DNA from: Gemmatimonadota bacterium
GTDB lineage: Bacteria; Gemmatimonadota; Gemmatimonadetes; Longimicrobiales; Gaopeijiaceae
Reading direction: 5' to 3'
Length of the DNA: 36,247 nt
NCBI GenBank assembly: GCA_022563405.1
Contig: JADFNK010000019.1
Coordinates: forward strand, 1 to 36,247
Shown: one piece after another, positions 3,319 to 36,247 of the stretch
Layout of the letters: every line of letters starts with the position of its first letter
Position numbering within the stretch: position 1 is the first letter of the stretch
Translations under genes and position numbers: made by a program
Notes under the pieces: generated by a model
Told to the model about the DNA's origin: nothing
The model's database searches: none
Seen by the model: only the letters and a program-made list of their open reading frames with translations

Positions 3319-5121
3319 TCACCAGCCTATAGCCGCACCACGCCCGCGAGGATCGGACGCCGCTTGGAGCGTTCCGTCCGGCATGACCATGATGGCCTGA
3401 ACATTTCCGGATAGTCCTCCGTCTTCAACCCGTTCAACCATCACATGCCCACGGGCTTCCAGTTCCGCCAGGACCGTTGGCGTGAGGGCACCCCGCTCGT
3501 ACATGATCTGGTCGGGCAGGTGCTGGTGGTGGACCCGGGGCGCGTTCACGGCCTGAGCGACGTTCATCCCATAATCCACCACGTTGACGATGGTCTGAAA
3601 GACCGTCGTGATGATCCTCCCTCCCCCCGGGGAGCCGGTGACGAAAAAGAGCGTGCCGTCGGGACGGCTCACGATCGTGGGGGTCATGGCGGAGAGCATC
3701 CTCTTGCCGGGCTCCACCCCGTTGTCCTCTCCCTGGACCAGACCGAAGAAATTGGGTGTGCCCGGCTTCGCAGTGAAGTCGTCCATCTCGTTGTTGAGCA
3801 GGAACCCAGCGCCCGCCACGGTCACCTTGCTGCCGAACGACAAGTTGAGCGTCGTGGTTACGGCCACGGCGTTCCCAGAGGCATCCACGATGGAAAGATG
3901 AGTGGTGTGATCCCCTTCCCGGGGAGGTTCCAGGCCGGGCCCGACGTCGGCCGAGGGTGTGGCCCGGTCGGTGATGTCGGCGGCCCGTGCCACAGCGTAC
4001 GCCTTCGCCGTCAAACGTTCCAGCGGGACGTCGATGAAATCCGAGTCCGCCAGATACGCGTTCCGGTCCGCATAGGATCGCCGCCAGGACTCCGCAAGAA
4101 GATGAATCATCTGGGTCGAGTGCCACGGCATCTCCGCGAGGTCGTACGTCTCCACCATGTTGGCCATTTCGGCCATCGTGGTGCCCCCTGAGGAGGAGGG
4201 CGGCATCGACAGAACCGTGAAACCCCGATACGTGAACTCGATCGGGTCCCGCCAGGCCGCTGTGTAAGCCTCCAGGTCCCGGTGAGAGATGAGTCCCTGG
4301 CCGCGCTCCATCTCAGCGACGATCAGATCGGCGGTCTCTCCCCGGTAGAATCCGTCGGCGCCTCGGTCTCGGATGCGGCGCAGCGTGGCGGCGAGCTCGG
4401 GCTGAGCAAATGTCTCGCCGATGTCCACGATCCGGCCTCCCGGGAGGAAGGTGGCGGCCGTCGTTTCGTAAAGCCTGAGGTCGCTCTCTTTGTTGGCGAT
4501 GTCGCGGCGGAAGCCCTCGTGGACCTCGAAGCCGTCGGCCAACTCGGCCGCCGGCTCCACCAGATCGGCCCAGGGCAGCGTGCCGAACCGTCGATGGGCC
4601 TCCCACAGGCCCATCACGGAGCCCGGTACGCCCACGGCCAGGTGGCCCAACATCGACTTGCCGGTCAACTCCCCACGGTCATCGAGGAACATGTCGCGCG
4701 TGGCCTCGAGCGGTGCTTTTTCTCGGTAGTCGAGGGCCGCGGTGGTCCCATCCGCCATTCTCACGACCATGAAGCCACCGCCCCCGATATTCCCCGCGTT
4801 CGGCTTGACCACGGCCAAGGCGAAGGATACGGCGATCGCCGCGTCTACCGCGTTCCCACCCTCCTGCATGATCCGAGCGCCTAGTTCGCTGGCGTAAATA
4901 TCCGTGCTCACGACCATGGCGCGCTCCGCGGTTACCGGCGCGTCGTCGGCCGAGAATCGCCAAGTGTCCGGAAAGACGATCGGGGGTCGGGATTGGGCTG
5001 TCTCATCGAGCCCGGCCTGAGGTGGTTCGGCCGGTGTGCAAGCAGCCAGCAGAAGCGCCAGACCGAGCATCGCTCGTTTCGCGCTTTTCTGGCAGATGGG
5101 CCCGGTTACGATTCGTTCCAC
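3319..5121 (-). CDS. ggt: Gamma-glutamyltransferase, predicted lipoprotein
   Basis: This 600-residue Ntn-hydrolase precursor is predicted to cleave glutathione and other gamma-glutamyl compounds outside the inner membrane and to transfer the glutamyl group. The family hallmark is DHTTHLSIVD, with Thr406 as the expected autoprocessing site and nucleophile. Arg133 in LDYREKAP and the glycine-rich GSPGGGRI also match the family. The N-terminus has basic residues, a hydrophobic core and lipobox LLAAC (Cys28), so it should be lipid-anchored. The start is GTG 5121, 5 nt after the stop of the upstream M20 gene. This retains the basic n-region; ATG 5070 would leave a signal without positive charge. 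It forms a two-gene unit with the amidohydrolase, suggesting peptide or amino-acid conjugate scavenging. Confidence 0.93.
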   Translation of the reverse strand: MERIVTGPICQKSAKRAMLGLALLLAACTPAEPPQAGLDETAQSRPPIVFPDTWRFSADDAPVTAERAMVVSTDIYASELGARIMQEGGNAVDAAIAVSFALAVVKPNAGNIGGGGFMVVRMADGTTAALDYREKAPLEATRDMFLDDRGELTGKSMLGHLAVGVPGSVMGLWEAHRRFGTLPWADLVEPAAELADGFEVHEGFRRDIANKESDLRLYETTAATFLPGGRIVDIGETFAQPELAATLRRIRDRGADGFYRGETADLIVAEMERGQGLISHRDLEAYTAAWRDPIEFTYRGFTVLSMPPSSSGGTTMAEMANMVETYDLAEMPWHSTQMIHLLAESWRRSYADRNAYLADSDFIDVPLERLTAKAYAVARAADITDRATPSADVGPGLEPPREGDHTTHLSIVDASGNAVAVTTTLNLSFGSKVTVAGAGFLLNNEMDDFTAKPGTPNFFGLVQGEDNGVEPGKRMLSAMTPTIVSRPDGTLFFVTGSPGGGRIITTVFQTIVNVVDYGMNVAQAVNAPRVHHQHLPDQIMYERGALTPTVLAELEARGHVMVERVEDGGLSGNVQAIMVMPDGTLQAASDPRGRGAAIGW

Positions 5122-5126
5122 GAGAC

Positions 5127-6308
5127 TTACCCCATCTCTTGGAGGAGTCGGATGGCGCCGGCCGCCAGCGTGGCGGCCCCTAACGGAAGCGCTGCTTCGT
5201 CGATGTCGAAGTCGGCCTCATGGTGCATACGTGGCCTGGGCAGGGCGGCCCCCACCCAAAAGAACGTGCCCGGCGCCTCGTTCGCGAGGAAGGAGAAATC
5301 CTCGGCGAGTGTCATGGGCTCGATGGGAAGCACGTCGTCCTCGCCCACCATATCGATCGCTGCGGCGCGCACGCACTCCGTCACCCGTTCGTCGTTGATG
5401 ACAGGGAGAATACCGGTCTCGACGTCGATCGTGACCTCGGCACCGGATTCCTCCAGAACGCCGAACGCCTCGTCCAACCGGCGGTTGAGGCGCTCTCGAG
5501 TCTCCTCCGAGAAGAAACGCATGGTCCCGTCGATCGTCACACGGTCCGCCAGGACGTTGGTGGCGGTGCCCCCCGAAATCTTCCCGAACGAGATGAGTCC
5601 GTCCTCGACGGGCGAACGGTTTTTTGGCGCCGCGTCCTTGGCCGCGACCACGCCTCGAGCCGCCAACACGAGCGCATCGATGCCTGCTTCGGGCATTCCC
5701 GCGTGGCTGCTCTTGCCGCGCACCTCGATGTGTATCTCCGCGGCGCCGGACATGATGGGTCCCGTGGCGAAGAAGAGTTTTCCGGTGGGGAGAGGTCCTC
5801 CCAGATGCAGCCCGACGACGGCGTCGACCCCCTCCATCACACCTTCGTCCACCATCCGCATCGCGCCGCTTTTGCCCTCGTCGTCGGTCGACTCTTCCGA
5901 GGGTTGAAAGATGAAACGAACGGTGCCGGAGGGCAGGCGCCCCGAATCTCTCTTCTCCGCCAGGATGCGGGCCGCTCCGATCAATCCGGCCACATGTCCA
6001 TCGTGCCCGCACGCGTGCATGACACCCGGGTTCTCGGAGATGTAATCGTGCGTATTCGCCTCCTGTATGGGGAGGGCGTCCATATCCGCACGAAGCGCGA
6101 TGAGGGGACCCTCGCCGTTGTGCAGCTCGGCGATCACCCCGGTGCGACCGATCCCGGTACGGACCGAAAAGCCGAGCGCCTCCATTTCCGTTGCCGCGAT
6201 TCCCGCCGTTCGCACCTCCTGGAACGAGAGTTCCGGGTGCCGGTGAAGGTCTCTACGAATCGCGGTGAGCTCTGCGGCGAGAGATTGGGCCTCTTCGAGA
6301 AGATTCAC
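5127..6308 (-). CDS. M20-family metal-dependent amidohydrolase (N-acyl amino acid / peptide hydrolase)
   Basis: The 393-residue enzyme resembles aminoacylase/hippurate hydrolase-type M20D peptidases that remove acyl groups from amino acids. It starts with the family N-terminus (RRDLHRHPELSFQE). The metal-binding motif HACGHDGH, the PSEES motif and a late HHEADF motif are all present. A dimerisation lid domain is expected in the middle third. GTG 6308 is preferred: it gives the usual family length and has GAGG just upstream. The open frame reaches further 5', but that extension would run through the divergent murQ start and has no family resemblance. It is followed 5 nt later by ggt, so the pair is probably co-transcribed. 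The substrate is not determined. Confidence 0.9.
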   Translation of the reverse strand: MNLLEEAQSLAAELTAIRRDLHRHPELSFQEVRTAGIAATEMEALGFSVRTGIGRTGVIAELHNGEGPLIALRADMDALPIQEANTHDYISENPGVMHACGHDGHVAGLIGAARILAEKRDSGRLPSGTVRFIFQPSEESTDDEGKSGAMRMVDEGVMEGVDAVVGLHLGGPLPTGKLFFATGPIMSGAAEIHIEVRGKSSHAGMPEAGIDALVLAARGVVAAKDAAPKNRSPVEDGLISFGKISGGTATNVLADRVTIDGTMRFFSEETRERLNRRLDEAFGVLEESGAEVTIDVETGILPVINDERVTECVRAAAIDMVGEDDVLPIEPMTLAEDFSFLANEAPGTFFWVGAALPRPRMHHEADFDIDEAALPLGAATLAAGAIRLLQEMG

Positions 6309-6498
6309 GGAGCCTCGGGCGCGTGGATCGAGCTTGCACGGTCCGTCGGGCGTGTAGATCGAGCTTGCACGGTCCGTCGGGCGGGCGAAGTCCTTGGTTG
6401 CTGGCGAAAAGAAGCCAAGATTAGCTTGTCCAAGCGAAGTATCGCCGCAACCGCGGGGGAGTTCCAGGTCTCGAACCACCGAGGGACGAACAGTCCGC
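6309..6498. promoter_or_regulatory. Divergent promoter region, M20 amidohydrolase / murQ
   Basis: This 190-bp gap must hold the promoters of both divergent units. It contains the 27-bp direct repeat and, nearer murQ, short dyads: GCTTG (6424-6428) with CAAGC (6431-6435), and CTTGG (6393-6397) with CCAAG (6414-6418). No -10 element could be assigned with confidence. Confidence 0.4.
6326..6383. repeat. 27-bp direct repeat, two perfect copies, between the M20 gene and murQ
   Basis: A 27-bp sequence beginning GATCGAGCTTGCAC and ending GTCGGGCG occurs at 6326-6352 and again at 6357-6383, so the period is 31 bp. The copies are identical. They lie 18 bp upstream of the M20 start and 116 bp upstream of murQ. 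Each contains a TTGCAC word that could serve as a -35 element on the plus strand. A duplicated operator or a recent tandem duplication would both fit. Confidence 0.85.
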
Positions 6499-7413
6499 AT
6501 GCTCGACGACCGACTGACGGAGCAGAGAAACCCGCGTTCTTCCGCGATGGACGTGTTGTCGGCGCTCGAGTTGGTCGATCTCATCAATTCCGAGGACCGA
6601 ACCGTGGCAGAGGCCGTTGAATCCCAGCGGCTCGCCATCGCTGATGCGATCGAGTTGGTGGTGGAGGCCTTCCGGAGCGGGGGCAGGTTGATCTATGTGG
6701 GTGCGGGAACGTCGGGGCGGTTGGGTGTTCTGGATGCGGCGGAGATGCCGCCGACGTTCGGAACCGACCCCGAGATGGTGCAGGGTATCATCGCGGGTGG
6801 ACGCGAGGCGCTGGTCCGGTCTCAGGAGGGCGCGGAGGACCATCCGGAGGATGGGGCCTCCGAGATCGACCGGCTGGAAATCGGTCCGAAAGACTTCGTG
6901 ATGGGGATCGCCACTTCGGGGACGACACCGTTCGTACACGGCGCCCTGGCCCGTGCCCGCGAACGTGGAGCGCACACGGGTTTTCTCCTATGTACGTCTC
7001 CGGCGCCCGAGCTCCTGGAGACCCACGACGTGGTCATCGCCCCGCTCGTTGGTCCGGAGGTCGTGACGGGTTCCACCCGCATGAAGGCCGGGACCGCCAC
7101 CAAGATGGTTCTCAACACGGTCACCACCGCTGCGATGGTCATGACCGGAAAGGTGTTCGGCAACCTCATGGTGGATCTCCAGGCGACCTGTGAGAAACTC
7201 GAGGATCGGGGCGAGCGGATTCTGATGACGATCCTCGACGTGGATCGGTCCCGTGCCGCTGCGCTCCTCGAGGCGGCGGGGGGCAACGTGAAGACCGCGC
7301 TGGTCATGGAACGTCGTGGGGCCGGGGTTGTGGAGGCGGAGCGGTTGCTCGAAGAGGCGGCGGGTGCGCTCGCCCGCGTGATCGGGAGTCTGGCCGAGGA
7401 CCCGCAGACGTGA
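6499..7413 (+). CDS. murQ: N-acetylmuramic acid 6-phosphate etherase
   Basis: MurQ removes the lactyl ether from MurNAc-6-phosphate, giving GlcNAc-6-phosphate in cytoplasmic peptidoglycan recycling. The 304-residue length matches the family. It opens with LTEQRNPRS, a MurQ hallmark. The SIS fold shows YVGAGTSGRLG (66-76), Glu82 in AAEMPPTFG and Glu113, which correspond to the two catalytic Glu residues of the E. coli enzyme. GPEVVTGSTRMKAG (185-198) follows. ATG 6499 is chosen because the family N-terminus begins there, with GAGGGA 12 nt upstream; longer in-frame extensions look non-coding. Its stop overlaps the anmK GTG start (GTGA), so both recycling steps are translationally coupled. Confidence 0.95.
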   Translation: MLDDRLTEQRNPRSSAMDVLSALELVDLINSEDRTVAEAVESQRLAIADAIELVVEAFRSGGRLIYVGAGTSGRLGVLDAAEMPPTFGTDPEMVQGIIAGGREALVRSQEGAEDHPEDGASEIDRLEIGPKDFVMGIATSGTTPFVHGALARARERGAHTGFLLCTSPAPELLETHDVVIAPLVGPEVVTGSTRMKAGTATKMVLNTVTTAAMVMTGKVFGNLMVDLQATCEKLEDRGERILMTILDVDRSRAAALLEAAGGNVKTALVMERRGAGVVEAERLLEEAAGALARVIGSLAEDPQT

Positions 7414-8576
7414 CGGGCGGGGATCTCTTCGTGGGCCTCATGTCGGGGACGTCCATCGACGGGATCGACGCCGTGCTCGTACGGATCGACGGTGATTCCA
7501 GCACGACCTTGGCCTGGAGCCTGCTCGCCTTCAGCACAACCGCGTACGATGAGGACCGCAGGAAAACGATCCTCGAGGCTCTCGAGGAGGGCACGCCGGA
7601 CACGTTATGCCGATTACACGCTTCGCTCGGCGAATGGTTCGCGTCAGCCGTTCACGACGTGTGTGAGGCCGCGGGTGTCGAGAGCCGGGAGCTCGCGGCC
7701 ATCGGTTCACACGGGCAGACCGTGTGGCACATTCCGCCGAGCGATGTTCTGGGGGGAGCCACGCTCCAGTTGGGAGACGCGGCTACGCTCGCCGAGCGTA
7801 CCGGGGCTCCGGTCATAAGCGATTTCCGGAGTCGCGACGTGGCGGCCGGCGGGCATGGGGCTCCGCTCGTTCCCTGGCTCGATCAACTCTTGTTCTCCGC
7901 CGTGGACCGCCGGCGCGCGATCCAGAACCTGGGCGGGATGGCCAACGTGACTTGGTTGCCGCCAACGGGTTCTCCTGAGCCGGTGATCGCGTTCGACACG
8001 GGGCCGGGTGTGGTGTTGATCGACGGGGCCGTGCGGCGTGCCAGCGACGGTGCTCTGCCGTACGATCGGGATGGGGTGATGGCGCTCCGGGGGCAAGTGG
8101 ACGAATCGCTCCTCACCGAGCTCCTCGACGACGCGTACTTTCGAGCTCCACCGCCCAAGTCGACGGGCCGGGAACACTTCGGAAGGGTACTCCTGGATCG
8201 GGTGGCGGAGGGCTTGAACCCCGGCACGGACGAAGAGGCCTGGTGTGATCTGGTGGCGACGCTCACGGCGTTCACGGCGCGCTCGATCGCGGAGGCTTAC
8301 CGGTCCTGGGTGCTTCCCAGAGGTCTCGATGAAATCTTCCTGGTGGGGGGTGGCACGAACAACCCGGCGTTGGTCCAGGCCATCACACGGGAGCTGGCTC
8401 CCGTGCCGGTGAGGGACGGTGGGGACCTCGGGGTCGATCCCGACGCTCGTGAGGCGCTCGCGTTCGCGTTCCTGGCGTGGGCGCACCTTCACCAGATCAC
8501 CGGTAACATTCCGTCGGTTACGGGCGCCGAGGCCCCCCGAGTTCTGGGGTCCCTGACACCCGGGGCGCAAGCATGA
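7410..8576 (+). CDS. anmK: Anhydro-N-acetylmuramic acid kinase
   Basis: AnmK opens the 1,6-anhydro ring and phosphorylates anhMurNAc to MurNAc-6-phosphate, the substrate of MurQ encoded just upstream. The 388 residues show the nucleotide-binding GLMSGTSIDGID (9-20), GSHGQTVWH (99-107), GGHGAPLVPW (148-156), NLGGMANVT (173-181) and FDTGPG with Asp196 as the expected catalytic base. A glycine-rich VGGGTNNP lies near the C-terminus. The GTG start at 7410 overlaps the murQ stop by 4 nt. The two genes make a compact recycling module. No muropeptide permease or GlcNAc-6-P deacetylase is in the window. Confidence 0.95.
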   Translation: MTGGDLFVGLMSGTSIDGIDAVLVRIDGDSSTTLAWSLLAFSTTAYDEDRRKTILEALEEGTPDTLCRLHASLGEWFASAVHDVCEAAGVESRELAAIGSHGQTVWHIPPSDVLGGATLQLGDAATLAERTGAPVISDFRSRDVAAGGHGAPLVPWLDQLLFSAVDRRRAIQNLGGMANVTWLPPTGSPEPVIAFDTGPGVVLIDGAVRRASDGALPYDRDGVMALRGQVDESLLTELLDDAYFRAPPPKSTGREHFGRVLLDRVAEGLNPGTDEEAWCDLVATLTAFTARSIAEAYRSWVLPRGLDEIFLVGGGTNNPALVQAITRELAPVPVRDGGDLGVDPDAREALAFAFLAWAHLHQITGNIPSVTGAEAPRVLGSLTPGAQA

Positions 8577-10300
8577 CACGCCGTGGCCGAAGCATGATCC
8601 CGACAGCCGAAGAGGAAGAGACCAAGAGCCTGATTCACCGGGCGGCGATTCACCCGGCGGCGATTCTCGCGGTGGTAGCTCTGGTCCACCTGGCTATCGC
8701 GCTTCCGGCTCTGAATCCCGCCCCCCACAACGGCGGCGACAATGCCGGTTACCTGTCTCTCGCCTATTCGTTGACCACCGGTGAGGGGTACGTCGAGGCT
8801 TGGGATCCGGCCTTGGCGCCGCACACGAAGTACCCGCCGCTCTACCCGGCGCTGCTCGCCGGGGCTATGGGGCTCGGCGCCGAGGCTTGGATCACTTTCA
8901 AGCTCCTGTCCCTGTTGCTGGTGACGGTCAGCGTGACGATCTGTTTCGCTTGGGTGCGCGACCGACACGGCGTGGGTTTGGCGACGGCTGTATCGCTGGT
9001 CCTCGCTTTCTCACCGGCGCTGCTTTGGTCCACCAATTGGATTCTGTCGGATCCGCTCTTCTTGGCGCTGACGCTCGCGTGTCTCTGGAGTTTCCACAAA
9101 TCGGAGCACGGGACGGTGCCCTCGCGGTGGATCTTGGCCGGCTGCGCGTTGGCGATCCTCTCCACCTTCACCCGGACGGCTGGGTTGCCCCTGGTCCTGG
9201 CGGTCGGGGCGGCACTCGGTCTCGCGCGGCATTGGCGGGCGCTGGCTGGGTTCGTGGTCGCGTTTGTGGCCCCCAACCTGCTTTGGTGGCTCCGGTCGCG
9301 GGCGGGGGGTGAGGCCCAGTACGTCTCGGAGTTCTGGATGATCGATCCCTACCAACCCGATCTCGGCCGAGCCGGAATCGGAGACCTTGCGGCTCGTGTG
9401 CTCGAAAACCTCCAGGGTTACGTCCTCGTACACATCCCGGCTGGATTGTCCCCGTGGTCGGGCGGCGCGCTCACGGCCTTGGGTGTGGTGCTGATGGCCG
9501 CTGCTTTGGCCGGGTGGGTCGCTCGGATCGGGGTCCGGTGGACCGTCGTTGAACTGTTCACTCCTTTGTACTTCGGGCTGATCTTGCTCTGGCCTGCCGT
9601 TTGGTCGGGGGACCGATTCGCACTGCCTCTTTATCCGCTGATGCTCTTCTACGCTGGTGAAGCGTTGGTCCGGGGAGCGAAGCGTATAGATGCGCGCTTG
9701 CCGCTGGTCGCGGGGGTGATCGCGGTCGCCGCGTTGCTGGTGCCCTCCATGCAGAGTTGGAGGCAGGCTGTGAGCGGGGCCAGCACCTGCCGGGAGTTGG
9801 TCCGCCAAGGAGGCCCTTTCGCGTGTTACAGCGAAGGGTTTCAGCAGTTCGTCTCAGCGGCGCGTTGGGTCGGTGAAAACGTGCCGGACGGGTCGGCGGT
9901 ATTCAGCCGAAAGCCCCGCATCTTCTATACACTTTCGGGCGTGCGGAGCCGGACGTACCCGCTGAGTGCCGATCCGGAGCGCTTCTTCCGTGAGGCCCGT
10001 GAGCTCGGGATCTCCTACGTCGTGCTCGATCAGGTGGATCGTTTGGGCGGGGCGTACGTGGGAGCGGTGGTCCGGGATCGTCCATGGGCGTTCTGCGGGC
10101 TCATCGGGGTGGGCGAAGGAGCTGTCCGGACCCAGATCCTTGGGATCGTCGACGGTGCGGTGGATCCGGGGGATGGGGTCAGCACAGGGTCGACCATAAG
10201 GCTGGTGCCCTGCGCCGAAGGGATGGTACGTCCGGATCCCAGGTCTCTCCCCCCCTATTCGGCGACGCGGCTTCCTCTGCTGGCCCTTCCCCCTCCGTAG
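8573..10300 (+). CDS. GT-C fold integral-membrane glycosyltransferase
   Basis: A 575-residue polytopic membrane protein with many hydrophobic segments, the first near residues 28-48. The first periplasmic loop carries GGDNAGY (Asp56) and KYPPLYP (86-92), the pattern seen in PMT/ArnT-like GT-C enzymes, which use polyprenyl-phosphate sugars and a loop Asp. A soluble C-terminal part of roughly 170 residues (from about 395) follows the last membrane segments. ATG 8573 overlaps the anmK stop (ATGA), so it belongs to the murQ-anmK unit; an ATG at 8594 is possible. Acceptor and sugar cannot be read. A second protein of the same general type lies at 19028-20710. Its last 46 nt overlap the convergent gene at 10255. 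Confidence 0.8.
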   Translation: MTRRGRSMIPTAEEEETKSLIHRAAIHPAAILAVVALVHLAIALPALNPAPHNGGDNAGYLSLAYSLTTGEGYVEAWDPALAPHTKYPPLYPALLAGAMGLGAEAWITFKLLSLLLVTVSVTICFAWVRDRHGVGLATAVSLVLAFSPALLWSTNWILSDPLFLALTLACLWSFHKSEHGTVPSRWILAGCALAILSTFTRTAGLPLVLAVGAALGLARHWRALAGFVVAFVAPNLLWWLRSRAGGEAQYVSEFWMIDPYQPDLGRAGIGDLAARVLENLQGYVLVHIPAGLSPWSGGALTALGVVLMAAALAGWVARIGVRWTVVELFTPLYFGLILLWPAVWSGDRFALPLYPLMLFYAGEALVRGAKRIDARLPLVAGVIAVAALLVPSMQSWRQAVSGASTCRELVRQGGPFACYSEGFQQFVSAARWVGENVPDGSAVFSRKPRIFYTLSGVRSRTYPLSADPERFFREARELGISYVVLDQVDRLGGAYVGAVVRDRPWAFCGLIGVGEGAVRTQILGIVDGAVDPGDGVSTGSTIRLVPCAEGMVRPDPRSLPPYSATRLPLLALPPP

Positions 10301-10986
10301 AGAAGGCCGAGCGCGACCCCGAAAAGGACGTGGTGGGTTATGGACTCGGTCCCGGACCTGGCCCCAGCAGCACTCGGACCCAGGAGCGCCGCCACGATCG
10401 GCATGGTCCGGTTGGGGCTGGAGGCACCGAGGATGCCGTCCAGCCCGCCGAATGGGGATGTCACGTACTCCATGACGCCGAACGTCGCCCCCCGAAGGAG
10501 TGGCGATCCCGGGAGCCGGGGTTCGAGAACCGCACCATAGAGCATGCCCCGCGCCGCTCCCGTGAGAAGTTCTGCGGTCGGGTCGGGCGGGCTCCCTTCA
10601 CCTTCCCGCGTCCCATTTTTTCCATTCCGAAACAGGCTGAGCGCCAGCGCGGCACCGGCCCCCGCCAAGGCGGCGCGCGTCAGGCGTAACGTTCCGGGCC
10701 GCTGTCCGACCACCATGGAGAACAGCCGGTCACCGAGAATACCCGTGCCGGTCGCGATGAGTTGATCCACGGTCGACGAGACTGGCCTGCGTCCAGGGTC
10801 CGCTGCTTCGCCCCGTCCGTTCCTGGCGGACCGTGCCTCGCTGGTGGACCGGCCTTTTCTTGCGCGTGGGGTTTTCTTGGCGGATCGGGCTTCCCGGGCT
10901 GACGAGGCTCCATGGCGTGCCGATTCGAGCGCGTAACCCAGCTGATACCAGATGCTTTTGGACGGTTCGGGCATGCCCTCGATCAC
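10255..10986 (-). CDS. Hypothetical membrane protein with Gly/Ala-rich segments
   Basis: I do not recognise this family. The 243-residue product has a short amphipathic start (SIWYQLGYALESAR), then about 50 residues very rich in Arg, Ser and Ala (about 18-68). Several Gly/Ala-rich hydrophobic stretches follow, such as LTRAALAGAGAALALSLF and a C-terminal HHVLFGVALGLLYGG. The repeated hxxGhxxGhhYG pattern resembles small inner-membrane proteins with paired helices, but that is only a pattern match. The start is GTG 10986 or ATG 10974; neither has a clear ribosome binding site. It overlaps the 3' end of the GT-C gene by 46 nt in convergent orientation. The coding call rests on length, codon pattern and the membrane profile. 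Confidence 0.6.
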   Translation of the reverse strand: MIEGMPEPSKSIWYQLGYALESARHGASSAREARSAKKTPRARKGRSTSEARSARNGRGEAADPGRRPVSSTVDQLIATGTGILGDRLFSMVVGQRPGTLRLTRAALAGAGAALALSLFRNGKNGTREGEGSPPDPTAELLTGAARGMLYGAVLEPRLPGSPLLRGATFGVMEYVTSPFGGLDGILGASSPNRTMPIVAALLGPSAAGARSGTESITHHVLFGVALGLLYGGGRASRGSRVAE

Positions 10987-11084
10987 TCGGAACTCTGATG
11001 GGAAGGTCCAACGCTTCCAAGGGTGAGCACGATGCGCCCGTTTGACAAGGTCGTGAGGGAAGGCGCCTTCGGGGAAGGTGTCTT
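10987..11084. other. Short intergenic gap with a 12-bp palindrome
   Basis: Between the two minus-strand membrane genes lies GAAGGCGCCTTC (11059-11070), a perfect palindrome that could end transcription of the upstream gene or bind a protein. No uridine run follows. Nothing else is recognisable. Confidence 0.35.
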
Positions 11085-11537
11085 CTAAGGAAGCTGTTTC
11101 GCGGTATCGAGCCCGACGTCGGCCTCCCCGCCACGTGCATCCGTGTCCGATGCTTTCGCTTCGTCGTTCTTGTCGCTGGCGGCGACTTCGCCCATGCGTC
11201 TCACGGAAGCGTGCATCTGTTCCAGAGCGTCTCGAAAACGCCTCTCGTATTCGGCGTTTCCGTCACCTTCCTTCTTCGCGACGGCGGCTGCGTTGAGCTC
11301 ACGGATCAGGGTAACAAAATGCTCCCCTTCTTCACGTAGGCGAAGGAAGCGGCGCTCGTCGGGTAGGATTCGGCTCGCGAGCCCCCAGACCCCTGCCTCG
11401 AGAATCAGGATGCCCAGCAGCACGAGGAGCACTTGTAGCTGCAGGCTATCCGACCCGAAGAGGACGGCCAAGAAAATGATCCCCATCCCGGCGACGGGGA
11501 GCGCGATCTCGAGGATGCGGCGGATTGTTCTTTTCAA
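11085..11537 (-). CDS. Small two-helix membrane protein with cytoplasmic coiled-coil tail
   Basis: The family is not recognised. The 150 residues begin with a basic stretch (KRTIRR). Two hydrophobic helices follow, about 10-27 and 33-54. A charged region (about 60-120) rich in Arg, Glu and Leu has coiled-coil character and leads to an acidic, low-complexity C-terminus. By the positive-inside rule both ends are probably cytoplasmic. The start is TTG 11537, supported by GGAAGG 6 nt upstream on the minus strand. It is divergent from nrdJ and 98 bp upstream of the other hypothetical membrane gene, with which it may be co-transcribed. No function is claimed. Confidence 0.65.
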   Translation of the reverse strand: MKRTIRRILEIALPVAGMGIIFLAVLFGSDSLQLQVLLVLLGILILEAGVWGLASRILPDERRFLRLREEGEHFVTLIRELNAAAVAKKEGDGNAEYERRFRDALEQMHASVRRMGEVAASDKNDEAKASDTDARGGEADVGLDTAKQLP

Positions 11538-11741
11538 GGGTCGCCTTCCGATGAGGGCTGCCAGGCCTGGAATCCTGAACGTCGGGCTCTACCCGAATCG
11601 TACCCGTGGGGATGTCGGTTGTACAGCAGATTTTTCTCGAAAGGGCACTGTTCTGGCGCATGATGTTCGCGTGATCTCTGGTCCTGGCGCGGGCAATCCT
11701 GGCGTTCTGATCAGACCCGTTGTACTCCTTGAACAGGCCTA

Positions 11742-11770
11742 TTGACCACAAGATGTAGTGGGCGTAGGTT
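11742..11770 (+). promoter_or_regulatory. Candidate sigma-70-type promoter of nrdJ
   Basis: TTGACC (11742-11747) and TAGGTT (11765-11770) are separated by 17 bp. The first matches 5 of 6 bases of the -35 consensus; the -10 match is moderate. The first NrdR-like box fills the spacer, which is the expected position for a repressor site. Confidence 0.45.
11746..11761 (+). promoter_or_regulatory. NrdR-box-like site 1
   Basis: CCACAAGATGTAGTGG agrees with the published NrdR consensus (acaCwAtATaTwGtgt) at 12 of 16 positions by my hand count. It overlaps the candidate promoter. NrdR is the ATP/dATP-sensing repressor of ribonucleotide reductase genes, which fits the gene downstream. Confidence 0.65.
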
Positions 11771-11776
11771 GCACGG

Positions 11777-11792
11777 CCGCAATATTTTGTAT
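11777..11792 (+). promoter_or_regulatory. NrdR-box-like site 2
   Basis: CCGCAATATTTTGTAT also agrees with the NrdR consensus at 12 of 16 positions by hand count. It begins exactly 31 bp after site 1, about three helical turns, which is the usual spacing of paired NrdR boxes. The spacing makes both calls stronger than either alone. Confidence 0.65.
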
Positions 11793-11858
11793 GCCTCAGG
11801 CCATTTTCCACAAAGGAAGTGCACTGGCGAGGCGGGTTTCGTCGGTTTTCAACATTCC

Positions 11859-11881
11859 GAGGCGGAGATTTCCACCGCCTC
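11859..11881 (+). promoter_or_regulatory. Leader hairpin upstream of nrdJ
   Basis: GAGGCGG (11859-11865) and CCGCCTC (11875-11881) form a perfect 7-bp stem with a 9-nt loop, ending 15 nt before the ribosome binding site. An identical GAGGCGG at 11829-11835 could pair with the same 3' arm instead, so two mutually exclusive folds exist. Confidence 0.4.
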
Positions 11882-11907
11882 TCCACAGTTTCGTCCGGAG
11901 CGCACGT

Positions 11908-14457
11908 ATGAAGCGGGAGGCCCGACGCGCTGAGCGTCCAAATTTCGAGGAGCCCCTACCAGAAGATCTTCCGAAGGCGAATTTCTCTGAAAATGCCCGG
12001 ATCGTTCTGGGCAAGCGATATCTGAAGAAGGGAGCTGACGGAACGCCTATCGAGGAGCCGGAGGCCATGTTCTGGCGTGTGGCCAAGGTCATCGCAAGTA
12101 CCGACCTGGACTACGGGGCCTCGGAGGCAGCCGTGGAAGAGTTGGCCCGCCAGTTCTACGATCTCATGACTACCGGGAAATTCGAGCCGAACTCTCCGAC
12201 GTTGATGAACGCCGGCCGTCCTCTGGGACAGCTTTCAGCCTGCTTCGTTCTGCCGGTGGACGACACTCTCTCCAACGGAAAGAGCGGCATTTACGATACG
12301 CTCATGGCCATGGCGCTCGTTCATCAATCGGGCGGTGGAACAGGCTTCTCCTTTTCTCGACTGCGGTCGAGCGGTGCACGGGTCAAATCGACCACGGGTG
12401 TGGCGTCCGGGCCCGTCTCGTTCATGACGCTGTACGACGCGAGCACGGAAGTCGTGAAACAGGGCGGGACGCGGCGGGGGGCGAATATGGGGATCCTCAG
12501 GGTGGATCATCCCGACATCCGTTCGTTCATCCTCTGCAAGGACGACACCTCCCAGATCACGAATTTCAACATTTCCGTGGCCTTGACCGATGTGTTCATG
12601 GAGGCGGTCGAGGCGGGCGAGAGCTACGACCTGGTGGACCCCACGACCGACGACGTAGTCGGCCAAGACGACGCCCGTGAGATCTTCGACATGATTATTC
12701 ACGGCGCGTGGAAGACCGGCGAGCCGGGGACGTTTTTCATCGACCGGGCCAACAGATTCAACCCGGTGCCCAAGCTCGGTTCCTACGAGGCCACGAATCC
12801 GTGCGGTGAGCAACCGCTGCTACCCTACGACGTGTGCAACTTGGGCAGCGTGAATCTCGCGAAATTCGTCAAAGAGGGTCATGTGCCGGGTGATGATCCG
12901 GCCGATGGCGTGGACTGGGACGCGCTCAGCCAGACGGTTCATCTGTCCACGCACTTCCTCGACAACGTCATCGACGCCAACCGGTATCCTCTGCAAGCGA
13001 TTACCGATTTGGCTCAGACCATTCGCCGGATCGGCCTGGGAGTCATGGGTTGGGCGGACATGCTCATCGGGCTCGGGATCCCCTACGACAGCCCCGAAGG
13101 GGTCGAGATGGGCCGGAAGGTGATGGGATTCCTGAACCAAGAGTCCCGTAATGCGTCGGAGAAGCTCGCCGAGAGCCGTGAGCCCTTCCCGGCCTGGGAG
13201 GAGTCCATTTGGGGGCCGGACGATCGTTGTGCCCGGGACTCTGACGGACAACGTATTCGCCCGATGCTCAAGCTCCGGAATTGCAACCTCACAACGGTGG
13301 CGCCGACCGGCACGATTTCGATCTTCGCTGGGTGTTCTGGAGGTATCGAGCCGATCTTCGCCGTCGCGTTCATGCGCAATCAGGCCGGTTCGATGATGCC
13401 GGATGTGAACCCTGCCTTCGTGGCTCGTGCTCAGGAGGAGGGTTGGTACTCGGAAGACCTCATAGCCCGCATCGCAGAGCAGGGTCACATCCACTTTCCG
13501 GAGGTTCCGGAGGAGGTACAGGCCGTCTTCAAGACCGCTCACGACATTTCCCCTGAGTGGCACGTGCGCATGCAGGCGGGGTTCCAGGAACACACCGATT
13601 CCGCCATCTCTAAGACCACCAACTTTCCGACGCAGGCCACCGAGGACGACGTCCGGAAGATCTATCAACTCGCGTACGAGCTCGACTGCAAGGGTGTCAC
13701 GGTGTACCGCGACGGGTCGAGGTCCGGACAAGTGTTCTCGACTGGAAAGACCGGTAAGGATCCACAGGAGTCCGCCGAAGACCAGCAGGAGTCGAGCGGT
13801 GACGTGGCGGCTCTCGAACAGATGCTCGCGGATGCGCGGGAATCTCTACATGAGCTCCGGATGGAACTCGACCAGGTCTACCGCGAACGGGACGATCGGG
13901 ATCAGACCGCTGCCGCGGCTCGCCACAAGCGTCAACGCCCCTCCATGCTCCGGGGCCGCACGCTCAAGATGAACTCACCTCTGGGCGATCTTTATGTCAC
14001 CATCAACGAGGATGAGAGCGGCCACCCGTTTGAGGTGTTCTGTACGCTCGGGAAGGCGGGTGGAGCAGCGACGGCGGATGCCGAGGCGGTCGGGCGGCTC
14101 ATCTCTCTCGCCCTCCGTTCCGGAATCCCGGTTTCAGCCGTCAAAGACCAACTTCGGGGGGTCTCGTCGGATCGCGCCGTAGGAGTGGGCCCGAGCAAAG
14201 TGCTCTCTTTACCTGATGCAATCGGCCAGGCGATCGAGCGGTACATGGCGGAGAAGGAAGGTGTGCAGGAGACACTTCCGCTGGGTGTTGCCGTCGACGC
14301 GGGTGGAGCTCAAGGTGGGACCCAGTCACAGGTCTCTGTGGATTCTGGGTATCAGGCGAATTTCTTGGGCAGCTGCCCGGAATGCAGCGCCGGCCAACTC
14401 TCGTTCGAGGAGGGTTGCGTGAAATGCCACATCTGTGGATACAGCCAGTGCGGATGA
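11908..14457 (+). CDS. nrdJ: Adenosylcobalamin-dependent (class II) ribonucleoside-diphosphate reductase
   Basis: The 849-residue enzyme makes deoxyribonucleotides with a B12-generated thiyl radical and needs no oxygen. Visible residues are Cys112 (SACF) and Cys459 (RNCNL) as the redox pair, and NPCGE (297-301) with thiyl Cys299 and Glu301. APTGTISIFAGCSGG follows. Next come a charged coiled-coil linker (about 635-680) and a TSCPD-type domain (about 690-775) with YVTINEDESGHPFEVF. The tail carries a CPEC...CVKCHICGYSQCG cluster, typical of the C-terminal Cys-rich end that re-reduces the active site. ATG 11908 is chosen for GGAG 7 nt upstream and the family N-terminus; the in-frame GTG at 11758 overlaps the promoter region. 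It is monocistronic, with its own promoter and terminator. Confidence 0.95.
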   Translation: MKREARRAERPNFEEPLPEDLPKANFSENARIVLGKRYLKKGADGTPIEEPEAMFWRVAKVIASTDLDYGASEAAVEELARQFYDLMTTGKFEPNSPTLMNAGRPLGQLSACFVLPVDDTLSNGKSGIYDTLMAMALVHQSGGGTGFSFSRLRSSGARVKSTTGVASGPVSFMTLYDASTEVVKQGGTRRGANMGILRVDHPDIRSFILCKDDTSQITNFNISVALTDVFMEAVEAGESYDLVDPTTDDVVGQDDAREIFDMIIHGAWKTGEPGTFFIDRANRFNPVPKLGSYEATNPCGEQPLLPYDVCNLGSVNLAKFVKEGHVPGDDPADGVDWDALSQTVHLSTHFLDNVIDANRYPLQAITDLAQTIRRIGLGVMGWADMLIGLGIPYDSPEGVEMGRKVMGFLNQESRNASEKLAESREPFPAWEESIWGPDDRCARDSDGQRIRPMLKLRNCNLTTVAPTGTISIFAGCSGGIEPIFAVAFMRNQAGSMMPDVNPAFVARAQEEGWYSEDLIARIAEQGHIHFPEVPEEVQAVFKTAHDISPEWHVRMQAGFQEHTDSAISKTTNFPTQATEDDVRKIYQLAYELDCKGVTVYRDGSRSGQVFSTGKTGKDPQESAEDQQESSGDVAALEQMLADARESLHELRMELDQVYRERDDRDQTAAAARHKRQRPSMLRGRTLKMNSPLGDLYVTINEDESGHPFEVFCTLGKAGGAATADAEAVGRLISLALRSGIPVSAVKDQLRGVSSDRAVGVGPSKVLSLPDAIGQAIERYMAEKEGVQETLPLGVAVDAGGAQGGTQSQVSVDSGYQANFLGSCPECSAGQLSFEEGCVKCHICGYSQCG

Positions 14458-14508: not shown

Positions 14509-14553
14509 AACCGGGTTCGCGTCGCCTGAAGCGGCGCGGGCCCGGTTCTTTAT
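14509..14553 (+). terminator. Strong rho-independent-type terminator after nrdJ
   Basis: AACCGGG (14509-14515) pairs with CCCGGTT (14541-14547), and CGCGTCGC (14518-14525) with GCGGCGCG (14531-14538). The intervening TT/GG can form wobble pairs, giving a nearly continuous 17-bp stem with a CTGAA loop. It is followed by CTTTAT, a short uridine tract. This is the best terminator in the window. Confidence 0.7.
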
Positions 14554-14560
14554 CTCCCGC

Positions 14561-14670
14561 GGTAGATCCACGCGGGAGAACCGCTGCTAGAACCCGGCGG
14601 GAGAACCCCTGCTAGAGCCCGGCGGTAGAACCCCTGCTAGAGCCCAGCGGTAGAACTGGCGGGAAACCCG
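14561..14670 (+). repeat. Degenerate tandem repeat, locus A1 (three 25-bp units plus flanking 12-mers)
   Basis: Three 25-bp units lie end to end at 14574-14598, 14599-14623 and 14624-14648, differing at a few positions. They start GG(G/T)AGAACC and contain CTGCTAGA. They are flanked by shorter units GGTAGATCCACGC (14561-14573), GGTAGAACTGGC (14649-14660) and a degraded one to 14670. The underlying word is GG(G/T)AGAACCCGC, also found at 14736-14793 and 25162-25235. Confidence 0.85.
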
Positions 14671-14674
14671 TGGT

Positions 14675-14703
14675 TTGTGTTCGGTCAGAAGCTTGCCGAT
14701 ATT
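14675..14703 (+). promoter_or_regulatory. Candidate promoter for the AAA+/receiver-sufE unit
   Basis: TTGTGT (14675-14680) and GATATT (14698-14703) are 17 bp apart, followed by AT-rich sequence that stands out from its GC-rich surroundings. It lies between the two repeat blocks A1 and A2. Both hexamers are imperfect. Confidence 0.35.
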
Positions 14704-14735
14704 TTAAATCAGTGATGGTGGGTCAAAAAGGGTCT

Positions 14736-14793
14736 GGTAGAAACCCGCGGGAGAACCTGCGGTAAAAGCCAGCGGTAGAACCCGCGGTTGGAG
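14736..14793 (+). repeat. Degenerate 12-13-bp tandem repeat, locus A2, ending in the ribosome binding site
   Basis: Units read GGTAGAAACCCGC, GGGAGAACCTGC, GGTAAAAGCCAGC, GGTAGAACCCGC and a final GGTTGGAG. The last partial unit contains GGAG (14790-14793), which sits 7 nt before the GTG start at 14801. A unit junction such as GCGGG-AGAA-CCCGC can fold into a 5-bp hairpin. Confidence 0.85.
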
Positions 14794-14800
14794 ATTTGAC

Positions 14801-16246
14801 GTGAGCGAGCCTGAAGGAGCGGCAACGGATCGGAAGCCCATGCAGAACTTCCGCACCGACGAACTGATCGGGCTCCTCTCGAGCCGGGTGGTGGGGCAGG
14901 CTCACGCCCTGGAGCATATCGTACCGAGCATCCAGCTACACCGGTCGGGGCTGGCTCCGGAAGGTCGCCCGGTCGGTGTGTTCCTCCTGCTCGGACCGAC
15001 CGGTACGGGCAAGACCCGGACGGTCGAAGCGCTTGCCGAAGTCCTCCACGGCGATGCGCGCAACGTGGTCAAGATCGATTGTGGTGAGTTCCAGAGCGAG
15101 CATGAAGTGGCGAAACTCATCGGGGCTCCCCCTGGGTACGTGGGACATGCTCAGACCGAGCCGCGCCTGAACCAGCTCGTGCTCGACGAAATGACGAGCG
15201 ACGAGTGCGACCTCACGCTGGTTCTTTTCGACGAAATCGAAAAGGCGGCGCCGTCCTTGGCTCAGCTACTGCTCGGTGTGCTCGACAAAGCGACGTTACG
15301 GTTGGGAGATGGTGCTGAGGTAAACTTCGAGAAGTCGCTGATCTTCCTTACCAGCAATCTCGGAGCAAGAGACATGCTGTCCGAGCTGCAGCCGACTTTG
15401 GGTTTCGACACGGAGCCGAGGCGCCCCGGGGCCGACCTCTCCGCGCACCTGGAGCGCGTGGGCCTCAGGGCGGTCCAGCGTCACTTCTCTCCGGAATTCG
15501 TGAACCGGATCGACGCCGTCATCACGTATCGTCCGTTGGGGAACGAGTCTCTGGTGGCGATTCTCGAACAACACGTGGTCGAACTTCAGCGCCATGTCCA
15601 GAATCGACTCGGCAGCCGATCGTTCGACATCGAGGTGGCTCCCGCAGCCCGATTTTTCATGCTCGAAAAAGGGACGAGTATGGAGTACGGAGCCAGGGAG
15701 CTGAAGAGGATCATCCACGTTCATTTGACGCAGCCGCTGGCTGCCATGGTCGCGAACGGTGAGGTCACGCCTGGGGCGCAGGTCACGGTCGACCTCCACG
15801 AAGACGGAGACCATCTGACTCTACTCGCTGCCGGTGGGACGCCCCTGCCTACCACCCCTCCATCGACCGTGCTCGCGATCGACGACAACGAGGCGGTGCT
15901 GGGTTGGCTCAACCGGGTTCTCGGCGATGAAGGCCACCGGGTTCTACTCGGTTCCACGGTCGAGGACGCGCGGCGGCACCTCGAAAAGGAGGTGCCCGAT
16001 ATACTGGTGTTCGACCAGATCTTGCCGGACGGTGATGGTGTCGAGCTCGCGGTGAACATTCTCAAGGAACACCCCGACACACGAGCCGTGGTCATGAGTG
16101 GGACCGGGCTGGACGAGGAGGACGTACTTCTCTGTCAACGGTATGATATTCCTTTCCTCAAGAAGCCGTTCGTGGCGGAAGAGCTGCTCAGCGCCCTCGA
16201 GGCGATTTCCTTGAGCGGTGGATCCAGCCGCTCGGCGGCCGGCTGA
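14801..16246 (+). CDS. ClpB/ClpC-type AAA+ unfoldase domain fused to a C-terminal response-regulator receiver
   Basis: The 481 residues hold one AAA+ module of the Clp/Hsp100 D2 class (about 18-340). It shows Walker A GPTGTGKT (65-72), a ClpB-like LIGAPPGYVGH (107-117) with the aromatic pore-loop Tyr, Walker B VLFDE (141-145), sensor-1 Asn186, Arg237 in FVNRID as likely arginine finger, and sensor-2 GARELKR (297-303). A Pro/Thr linker (347-355) leads to a receiver domain (357-470) with acidic pair Asp361/Asp362, phosphoacceptor Asp405, Ser433 and Lys455. There is no Clp N-domain, D1 ring or middle domain, and no obvious ClpP-binding loop. All catalytic residues for both domains are present. 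It probably acts as a phosphorylation-controlled unfoldase in the cytoplasm; the client is unknown. The start is GTG 14801 with GGAG 7 nt upstream. sufE follows after 26 nt. Confidence 0.88.
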   Translation: MSEPEGAATDRKPMQNFRTDELIGLLSSRVVGQAHALEHIVPSIQLHRSGLAPEGRPVGVFLLLGPTGTGKTRTVEALAEVLHGDARNVVKIDCGEFQSEHEVAKLIGAPPGYVGHAQTEPRLNQLVLDEMTSDECDLTLVLFDEIEKAAPSLAQLLLGVLDKATLRLGDGAEVNFEKSLIFLTSNLGARDMLSELQPTLGFDTEPRRPGADLSAHLERVGLRAVQRHFSPEFVNRIDAVITYRPLGNESLVAILEQHVVELQRHVQNRLGSRSFDIEVAPAARFFMLEKGTSMEYGARELKRIIHVHLTQPLAAMVANGEVTPGAQVTVDLHEDGDHLTLLAAGGTPLPTTPPSTVLAIDDNEAVLGWLNRVLGDEGHRVLLGSTVEDARRHLEKEVPDILVFDQILPDGDGVELAVNILKEHPDTRAVVMSGTGLDEEDVLLCQRYDIPFLKKPFVAEELLSALEAISLSGGSSRSAAG

Positions 16247-16272: not shown

Positions 16273-16689
16273 ATGACTCCCGACGAATTTGCAGAGCGCT
16301 TCAACCGGTTACGCTCTTGGGAGGACCGCTATCGATACCTCATCCAGCTCGGACGGAAGCTGGAGCCTTACCCGGAAGAATTCAGGGATCAGGAGCACTT
16401 GGTCCCAGGATGTCTGAGTCAAGTCTGGCTCGTCACCACCGAGGGCTCCGACCCGTCCGAAATGGTGTTTCGGGGGGACAGCGATGCCCATATCGTCAAA
16501 GGGCTCGTCGCGATACTCCTCATGTTGTACTCGGGCAAGACGGCGGAGGAGATTATTTCGACCGACCTGCAAGGGTTCTTCGAGGGGCTGGACCTGGGGC
16601 AACATCTCTCGGTCAATCGAAGGAACGGCTTCTATTCGATGACCCTGAAGATCAGAGAACATGCGGCCCAAGCGATGACCGCGTCGTGA
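16273..16689 (+). CDS. sufE: SufE-type cysteine desulfuration protein
   Basis: SufE takes sulfur from the desulfurase SufS as a persulfide and passes it to Fe-S cluster assembly. The 138-residue length matches. It begins MTPDEFAERF and carries VPGCLSQVW, with Cys47 as the persulfide-accepting residue. A typical C-terminal region follows (GKTAEEIISTDLQGFFEGLDL). It lies 26 nt after the AAA+/receiver gene, so the two may share a transcript. No sufS, sufBCD or iscU is nearby. Its stop codon sits inside the first unit of a 23-bp tandem repeat (16676-16744), so the repeat encodes the last residues (MTAS). Confidence 0.93.
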   Translation: MTPDEFAERFNRLRSWEDRYRYLIQLGRKLEPYPEEFRDQEHLVPGCLSQVWLVTTEGSDPSEMVFRGDSDAHIVKGLVAILLMLYSGKTAEEIISTDLQGFFEGLDLGQHLSVNRRNGFYSMTLKIREHAAQAMTAS

Positions 16690-35123: not shown

Positions 35124-35891
35124 GTGTCGGGGGTCCTGGTGGATGTGCGCGATACGACCGACCAGAAGCATATCGAGACTCAGCTCGAGCGCTCGGTCGC
35201 TGAACTCGAAGCGGCGAATCGGGAGCTGGATTTGTTCAGTGCCTCCTTGGCACACGATTTGAGGAGCCCGCTGCTGATCGTGACCAACTTCAGCCACCAC
35301 CTCCAGCAAGCCTTCGGCGACTCGCTCGATGAGCAGGGGGAAGACGACCTACAGCGCATTCAGGCCGCTGGCCGGCACATGACACACATCATCGACGACC
35401 TCCGCGGTCTCGCTGACGTGAACCGAGTCGAGATCAATCGAGAGGAAGTCGACTTTTCGTCGTTGGGGCGAGAGATCATCGACGACTTGAGTGCGCTGGC
35501 CCCGGACCGGGCCGTGAGTTTCGAGGCGGAGCCTGGAATCAGGGCTCTTGGGGACGAGACGCTTTTGAGGATTCTCCTGGCCAACCTGCTTCAGAATGCA
35601 TGGAAGTACACGGGACCTCGCGATGACGCTCGGATCGAGTTGGGCGTCACCGAGAACGGGAGTGGTGTCCCGACCTACCACGTCCGAGACAATGGGATCG
35701 GCTTCGACGACGCCGACCGTGAGGAAATCTTCCAAGCCTTCAAGCGGCTCCATACCAGGGCGGAGTTCGCAGGGACCGGACTCGGGCTGGCCACCGTGGA
35801 GCGAATCGTGGCTCGCCACGGCGGACGAGTCTGGGCCGAGGGTGTTCCAGGAGAGGGCGCGGTCTTCCGCTTCACCCTCGGATCTTCGTAG
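35124..35891 (+). CDS. Histidine kinase lacking most of its PAS domain (probably 5'-truncated)
   Basis: The 255-residue frame from GTG 35124 encodes a phytochrome-type kinase core. It has a short coiled linker, an H-box (SLAHDLRSP, His44), an N-box (NLLQNAWKYT), G1 (VRDNGIGFD) and G2 (GTGLGLATVERIVARHGG), ending in a normal ATPase fold. Upstream, the same frame stays open to the atoE stop. There it encodes RHFEARYDPFFEADGS leading into VSGVLVDVRDTTDQKH, the last third of a PAS domain. The front of that PAS domain is missing, and no start with a ribosome binding site is seen. The gene therefore looks decapitated by a deletion or rearrangement next to atoE. It may be a pseudogene, or a kinase core expressed from GTG 35124. 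It faces a receiver gene 13 nt away. Confidence 0.7.
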   Translation: MSGVLVDVRDTTDQKHIETQLERSVAELEAANRELDLFSASLAHDLRSPLLIVTNFSHHLQQAFGDSLDEQGEDDLQRIQAAGRHMTHIIDDLRGLADVNRVEINREEVDFSSLGREIIDDLSALAPDRAVSFEAEPGIRALGDETLLRILLANLLQNAWKYTGPRDDARIELGVTENGSGVPTYHVRDNGIGFDDADREEIFQAFKRLHTRAEFAGTGLGLATVERIVARHGGRVWAEGVPGEGAVFRFTLGSS

Positions 35892-35904
35892 AGACCTCTA
35901 CCGC

Positions 35905-36247
35905 TCATATCCTGTGATCGGCGGAGCCGCCGGTGCCGAAGACCTGCTCGATGACTTCCCTCAGGCGCGTACCGTCTAGCGGCTTGGTGAGGTAGGTGTT
36001 CGCGCCCGCCGCGAGGCCTTTCGCGACGTCTCCCTCGCCGGTCTCACAGCTGATGAAGATGACCGGGATCTCGGCCAGCTTGGGGTCAACTCTGAGCCTC
36101 TCGAGGAACTCGAATCCAGTCATCTCCGGCATGTTCACGTCTAGGCTGATTAGGTCGGTTTGCGGATCCTCGCTCAGCGCCTCGAGCGCCTCGAGCCCGT
36201 TGGACGCGAAACGCAGCTCTATGTCGTACGCCTTGAACTCCTTGAGG
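35905..36247 (-). CDS. Response-regulator receiver protein, partial (continues past window end)
   Basis: The minus-strand frame is open to the right edge, so the N-terminus is outside the window. The visible 113 residues include LISLDVNMPEMTGFEFL with the phosphoacceptor Asp. VIFISCETGEGD holds the conserved Ser/Thr position, and ANTYLTKPL the conserved Lys. A short tail (GTGGSADHRI) follows the domain, so it is probably a single-domain CheY-like regulator or the end of a larger one. It lies tail to tail with the histidine kinase, a common pairing, though partnership is only inferred. Confidence 0.88.
   Translation of the reverse strand, partial: LKEFKAYDIELRFASNGLEALEALSEDPQTDLISLDVNMPEMTGFEFLERLRVDPKLAEIPVIFISCETGEGDVAKGLAAGANTYLTKPLDGTRLREVIEQVFGTGGSADHRI

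Follow-up and report, generated by a model that had tools for sequence, protein, structure and literature searches.

The window, that is, the whole 36,247-nucleotide stretch analysed here, carries on its forward strand an uninterrupted frame that runs from a GTG start at 14801 to a stop at 16246, with the sequence GGAG located 7 nt 5′ of the start. In the encoded protein of 481 aa a D2-type AAA+ module is followed by a Pro/Thr linker and a C-terminal receiver. The features of the locus are as follows.

14801–16246, forward strand: AAA+/receiver fusion gene, 481 aa, GTG start, GGAG at 14790–14793
14966–15517, forward strand: AAA+ large domain, residues 56–239, Pfam AAA_2
14993–15016, forward strand: Walker A GPTGTGKT, residues 65–72, invariant in 13/13 fused proteins
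15131–15148, forward strand: pore loop PGYVGH, residues 111–116, PGY and GH invariant
15215–15235, forward strand: Walker B TLVLFDE, residues 139–145, DE invariant
15350–15358, forward strand: sensor 1 TSN, residues 184–186, invariant in the fused proteins
15398–15406, forward strand: LGF tripeptide, residues 200–202 (L200-G201-F202), aligned with the ClpP-docking loop of ClpA/ClpC
15506–15508, forward strand: arginine finger R236 within PEFVNRID, invariant in the fused proteins
15536–15790, forward strand: AAA+ small domain, residues 246–330, ClpB_D2-small, sensor-2 GAR at 297–299
15806–15865, forward strand: linker, residues 336–355, Pro/Thr-rich toward its end
15866–16201, forward strand: receiver domain, residues 356–467, Response_reg match at 357–466
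16013–16015, forward strand: phosphoacceptor Asp405, Glu in 1/13 fused proteins (L025)
16163–16165, forward strand: receiver Lys455, invariant in 13/13
16273–16689, forward strand: sufE, 26 nt downstream of the fusion gene

A preliminary description had read the gene as an open frame for a D2-type ATPase, a linker and a complete receiver, and the frame, the motifs, the profile searches and the structural model bore this out. In the domain search proposed there, AAA_2 (E = 4.7e-35), ClpB_D2-small (7.7e-15) and Response_reg (1.3e-13) were all recovered above their gathering cut-offs. The AlphaFold model of the fusion protein had a mean pLDDT of 88.4 and a pTM of 0.70, with lower confidence at about residues 111–120 (pore loop) and 191–210 (tripeptide region), and its top PDB matches in Foldseek were ClpB NBD2 and ClpC.

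The protein was assigned to the Hsp100/Clp D2-type AAA+ class on the combined AAA_2 and ClpB_D2-small matches. It was not classed as ClpB, since the two rings and the M-domain are absent and the NCBIfam ClpB model TIGR03346 was matched over its D2 part only (562–848 of 853; 224.8 bits, cut-off 1232.1), nor as ClpA/ClpC, which are defined as double-ring proteins by an N-domain and a D1 ring. Pfam and NCBIfam profile searches gave no N-domain, D1 ring or M-domain anywhere in the 481 aa. The preliminary description had noted this absence and had held that all known Clp unfoldases carry such control domains; the absence stands, but the generalization does not, given the single-ring D2 protein CLPB/Skd3 of humans (matched at about 6e-30) and the receiver-less relatives described below. 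Its distinction from NtrC-type proteins was upheld on both counts, as the AAA+ domain precedes the receiver and belongs to a different clade (Sigma54_activat 27.7 bits vs AAA_2 121.5 bits).

Distribution and phylogeny of the fusion

The AAA+-then-receiver order was found in 13 distinct proteins (6 Gemmatimonadota, 7 Acidobacteriota), all with intact Walker A and B, sensor 1 and 2, arginine finger and aromatic pore loop. Among 395 sampled Gemmatimonadota genomes six contain the fusion; the relatives (G001, with 88% identity, G008, G389, G224 and G380) are all of the same family as the window. A scan of GTDB contigs returned fused proteins from Gemmatimonadota (L021–L025, which are the same contigs as the five relatives just named and were counted once) and from Acidobacteriota (L026–L028); it used two short peptide patterns, so fusions in other phyla may have been missed. 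Further acidobacterial fusions were G410, G600, G466 and G609, and a full-length fusion was present in 4/347 sampled acidobacterial genomes (E ≤ 1e-80). Samples of phyla taken around other lineages yielded nothing at E ≤ 1e-64; two of these samples seem to draw largely on the same genomes, and an empty result of this search is a weak negative. The architecture survey suggested in the preliminary description found 12 other distinct proteins with this order in independent genomes, so the fusion is neither chance nor chimera. Searches of Pfam, NCBIfam and PHROGs matched no named family with this order and no paper describing the architecture was found in the literature searched, so that the possibility raised earlier of an already named family gained no support.

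Outside the genus, the fused proteins share 59–79% identity with the window in the AAA+ part and 31–54% in the receiver. Both domains are under purifying selection between the window and L021 (dN/dS 0.06 for AAA+, 0.19 for the receiver), and in the closer pair L022 and L023 the values were 0.10 and 0.35, respectively; of the two parts, the receiver is the faster to evolve.

In a tree of 58 AAA+ domains, 42 single-ring proteins were split from the D2 domains of ClpA/B/C at a branch supported at 100/100. The single-ring side holds the fused proteins, two groups of receiver-less acidobacterial proteins (mostly about 340–360 aa in the first group and about 400 aa in the second) and the viral-contig proteins L011–L016. 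A single-ring match was obtained in 47/347 sampled acidobacterial genomes (E ≤ 1e-80), and the receiver-less paralog of about 400 aa (L107–L130) is present in many Acidobacteriota. Twelve of the 13 fused AAA+ parts formed a group (91/84), with L027 loosely placed; strict monophyly was therefore not recovered, and a single clade was not rejected (AU p = 0.29). The Gemmatimonadota sequences formed a 100/98 group with acidobacterial G466 as sister, nested among acidobacterial proteins, which suggests an origin in, or exchange with, Acidobacteriota. When compared with nine other receivers, a small set, the receivers of the fused proteins formed one group and the grouping of Gemmatimonadota with G466 was repeated. 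This agreement with the AAA+ tree fits a single fusion event followed by joint inheritance of ring and receiver. An origin of the fusion from phages or plasmids was rejected, as tblastn against both gave no match covering 80% of the query; no fused protein came from a scan of viral sequences with the AAA+/receiver segment.

ClpP-loop tripeptide, receiver and neighbouring genes

A tripeptide of the type [LIVMF]-G-[FL] between sensor 1 and the arginine finger, in alignment with the ClpP-docking tripeptide of ClpA/ClpC, was present in 51/51 distinct single-ring proteins. This number was obtained from 56 alignment rows labelled as single after removal of five double-ring fragments, judged by placement; L065, the one row that departs from the pattern, is among these fragments. 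Of six double-ring proteins scored as ClpB by NCBIfam, five are without the tripeptide and one (L068) has LGY in a short loop, and the tripeptide is present in the four other proteins scored with them. LGF-loops stabilize ClpC on ClpP1P2, ClpB is without them and their presence discriminates ClpC from ClpB (PMC10149685); IGF loops are flexible docking elements on ClpP (PMC9035409). By this discriminator the fusion protein, with LGF at 200–202, falls with the ClpP partners. The same genome encodes ClpP and a separate ClpX, and no clpP gene adjoins the fused gene. The protein is best read as a putative ClpP-feeding unfoldase rather than a ClpB-like disaggregase, because the tripeptide occurs in all single-ring members, ClpB is without it and ClpP is encoded in the genome; the tripeptide is a short motif, which counts against this reading. 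The earlier wording, ‘unfoldase or disaggregase’, can accordingly be narrowed, its first half being favoured and its second disfavoured by the tripeptide.

The receiver of the window has the full set of response-regulator residues (D361/D362, D405, S433 and K455). Across the fused proteins the acidic pair (DD; ED in L027), Ser/Thr and Lys are found in 13/13 and the phospho-Asp in 12/13, and a family-specific cysteine, C445, is invariant. With the active site kept nearly throughout, control by phosphorylation would be the simplest reading. Eleven HisKA matches above cut-off were counted in the genome and could supply the kinase for D405. One of them lies in the window (35124–35891), next to an opposite-strand response regulator at the contig end, which is the likelier partner of this kinase; the two genes, at 35124–36246, probably make up a two-component pair of their own. 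Across the neighbourhoods examined, the fused genes have no conserved kinase neighbour. A histidine kinase was found near the fusion only in acidobacterial L137, nearby downstream; there, by sequence reading, the fusion is part of a two-component cluster (4886–13650) with a NarL-type regulator upstream and PAS and hybrid kinases downstream.

The 26-nt spacing to sufE given in the preliminary description is correct, and the adjacency recurs in a same-genus relative. It is absent at the other fused loci, which carry a sulfurtransferase, wecB or unrelated genes instead (at L022/L023, the upstream neighbour is a sulfurtransferase gene and the downstream one is CoxS-like, both named by sequence reading). 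Being limited to one genus, the adjacency does not support the suggested partnership, and sufE was rejected as a functional partner. In Acidobacteriota wecB (Epimerase_2) lies directly upstream of fused L027 and L028 and of receiver-less L029, L031, L034, L143 and L144, so that at apparently the same locus the receiver varies by lineage. Guilt-by-association from neighbours was rejected on these grounds, wecB preceding members of both kinds and no kinase being conserved.

Upstream, a terminator-like hairpin (14509–14547) follows nrdJ, so that the fusion gene probably begins its own transcription unit. In two genera an nrdJ-like ribonucleotide reductase gene (TSCPD domain) stands upstream of the fusion, either immediately or separated from it by two genes (window 11758–14457; L023 839–3373; L145 8452–10986). 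In the window, the interval separating nrdJ from the fusion gene is filled, at 14559–14787, by CTGCTAGARCCCGGCGGTAGAACC-like degenerate direct repeats with a period of about 25 nt.

Proposed mechanism and alternatives

The fusion protein shares with the D2 domains of ClpC and ClpA the D2-type core, the GYVG pore loop and the [LIVM]-G-[FL] ClpP-loop tripeptide, and differs from these double-ring proteins in its separate clade, in the absence of N-domain, D1 and M-domain and in the added C-terminal receiver. Its closest D2 fold matches are ClpB/Hsp104 D2 and human CLPB (Skd3), the latter likewise built as one D2 ring plus an additional regulatory domain; in contrast to these, the fusion protein has the ClpP-loop tripeptide, which classified ClpB is without, and a receiver in place of N-domain, D1 and M-domain or of ankyrin repeats. 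Like ClpX it has one ring and a ClpP loop of the IGF type, but it belongs to another AAA+ subfamily and is without the zinc-binding N-domain. NtrC/DctD-type proteins likewise combine receiver and AAA+ in one chain, although in the opposite order, with an AAA+ domain of the sigma-54 activator clade and a DNA-binding output. Receivers are coupled to Clp proteolysis in RssB and CpdR, response regulators that control ClpXP in trans (PMC7226468, PMC11519897); these are separate proteins, whereas here the receiver lies within the unfoldase chain. The receiver-less single-ring relatives from Acidobacteriota and phages (L029–L037, L105–L130, L011–L017) share AAA+ clade and tripeptide with the fusion and differ by the missing receiver, some of them sharing the wecB locus with fused members.

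We propose that six copies of the protein assemble into one Hsp100/Clp D2-type ring in which GYVG pore loops would thread substrates and LGF loops would dock the ring on ClpP, to which the substrates would be fed. A kinase in trans would phosphorylate D405, and the C-terminal receiver in this state would change how active the ring is, how it docks on ClpP or which substrates it selects. That the protein is a ClpP-feeding D2 ring with a built-in two-component receiver switch we regard as evenly balanced between right and wrong. What was observed is a complete set of ATPase and pore motifs, an intact receiver, a fusion kept in two phyla, a tripeptide that is conserved and a ClpP encoded in the genome; hexamerization, docking on ClpP, phosphorylation and the sense in which control acts are what we infer. 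Against the proposal counts the comparison of wecB loci, by which some lineages can do without the receiver. The Glu of L025, the scarcity of kinase neighbours, the lower identity of the receivers and the weaker receiver dN/dS of the L022/L023 pair weigh in the same direction. Somewhat short of an even chance is given to the formulation as a response regulator with a ClpP-loading unfoldase output, that is, phospho-switched proteolysis, on an unnamed single-ring clade of Acidobacteriota, Gemmatimonadota and phages.

A serious but unlikely contender is a single-ring ATPase that disaggregates or remodels proteins without ClpP, phospho-gated and similar to Skd3, with the receiver in the place of the ankyrin repeats. 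Skd3, a single-ring D2 protein of solved structure, matches the fusion protein, the best sequence matches and the top Foldseek match are to ClpB D2, and clpP is not beside the fused gene; on the other hand, the loop that classified ClpB is without occurs in every single-ring member, and the protein has no M-domain for cooperation with Hsp70. The Glu at the phospho-Asp position of L025 and the more rapid divergence of the receiver leave room for a phosphorylation-independent role of this domain in docking, dimerization or substrate recruitment, in which it would replace an N-domain or adaptor and D405 would be unused for control. The invariant C445 and the lack of a linked kinase agree with such a role, which we nevertheless judge distinctly improbable, as Asp is kept in all but one of the proteins and the remaining catalytic residues in all of them, a set beyond the needs of a mere docking domain. 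In some receivers, moreover, Glu can stand in for phosphorylated Asp. That the fusion stems from faulty assembly or gene calling, or that the gene is decaying, is barely credible: the named fused members do come from metagenome-assembled or uncultured genomes, but separate studies yielded 13 different uninterrupted frames with this domain order in two phyla, and dN/dS between the window and L021 is well below 1 in both domains. A chimera was rejected on the strength of the 13 distinct homologs.

If the proposed ClpP-feeding switch is correct, signal and protease motor would be joined in one chain, unlike the separate adaptors RssB and CpdR, and with the receiver fused, control of ATP-dependent degradation by phosphorylation could be tested directly. 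The single-ring clade, with its receiver-less and phage members, would offer minimal D2 rings in which to study the feeding of ClpP by one ring. Receiver-less single-ring Clp-like proteins that carry this ClpP-loop tripeptide are also encoded on the viral contigs L011, L012, L014, L015 and L016; these proteins are possible recruiters of host ClpP.
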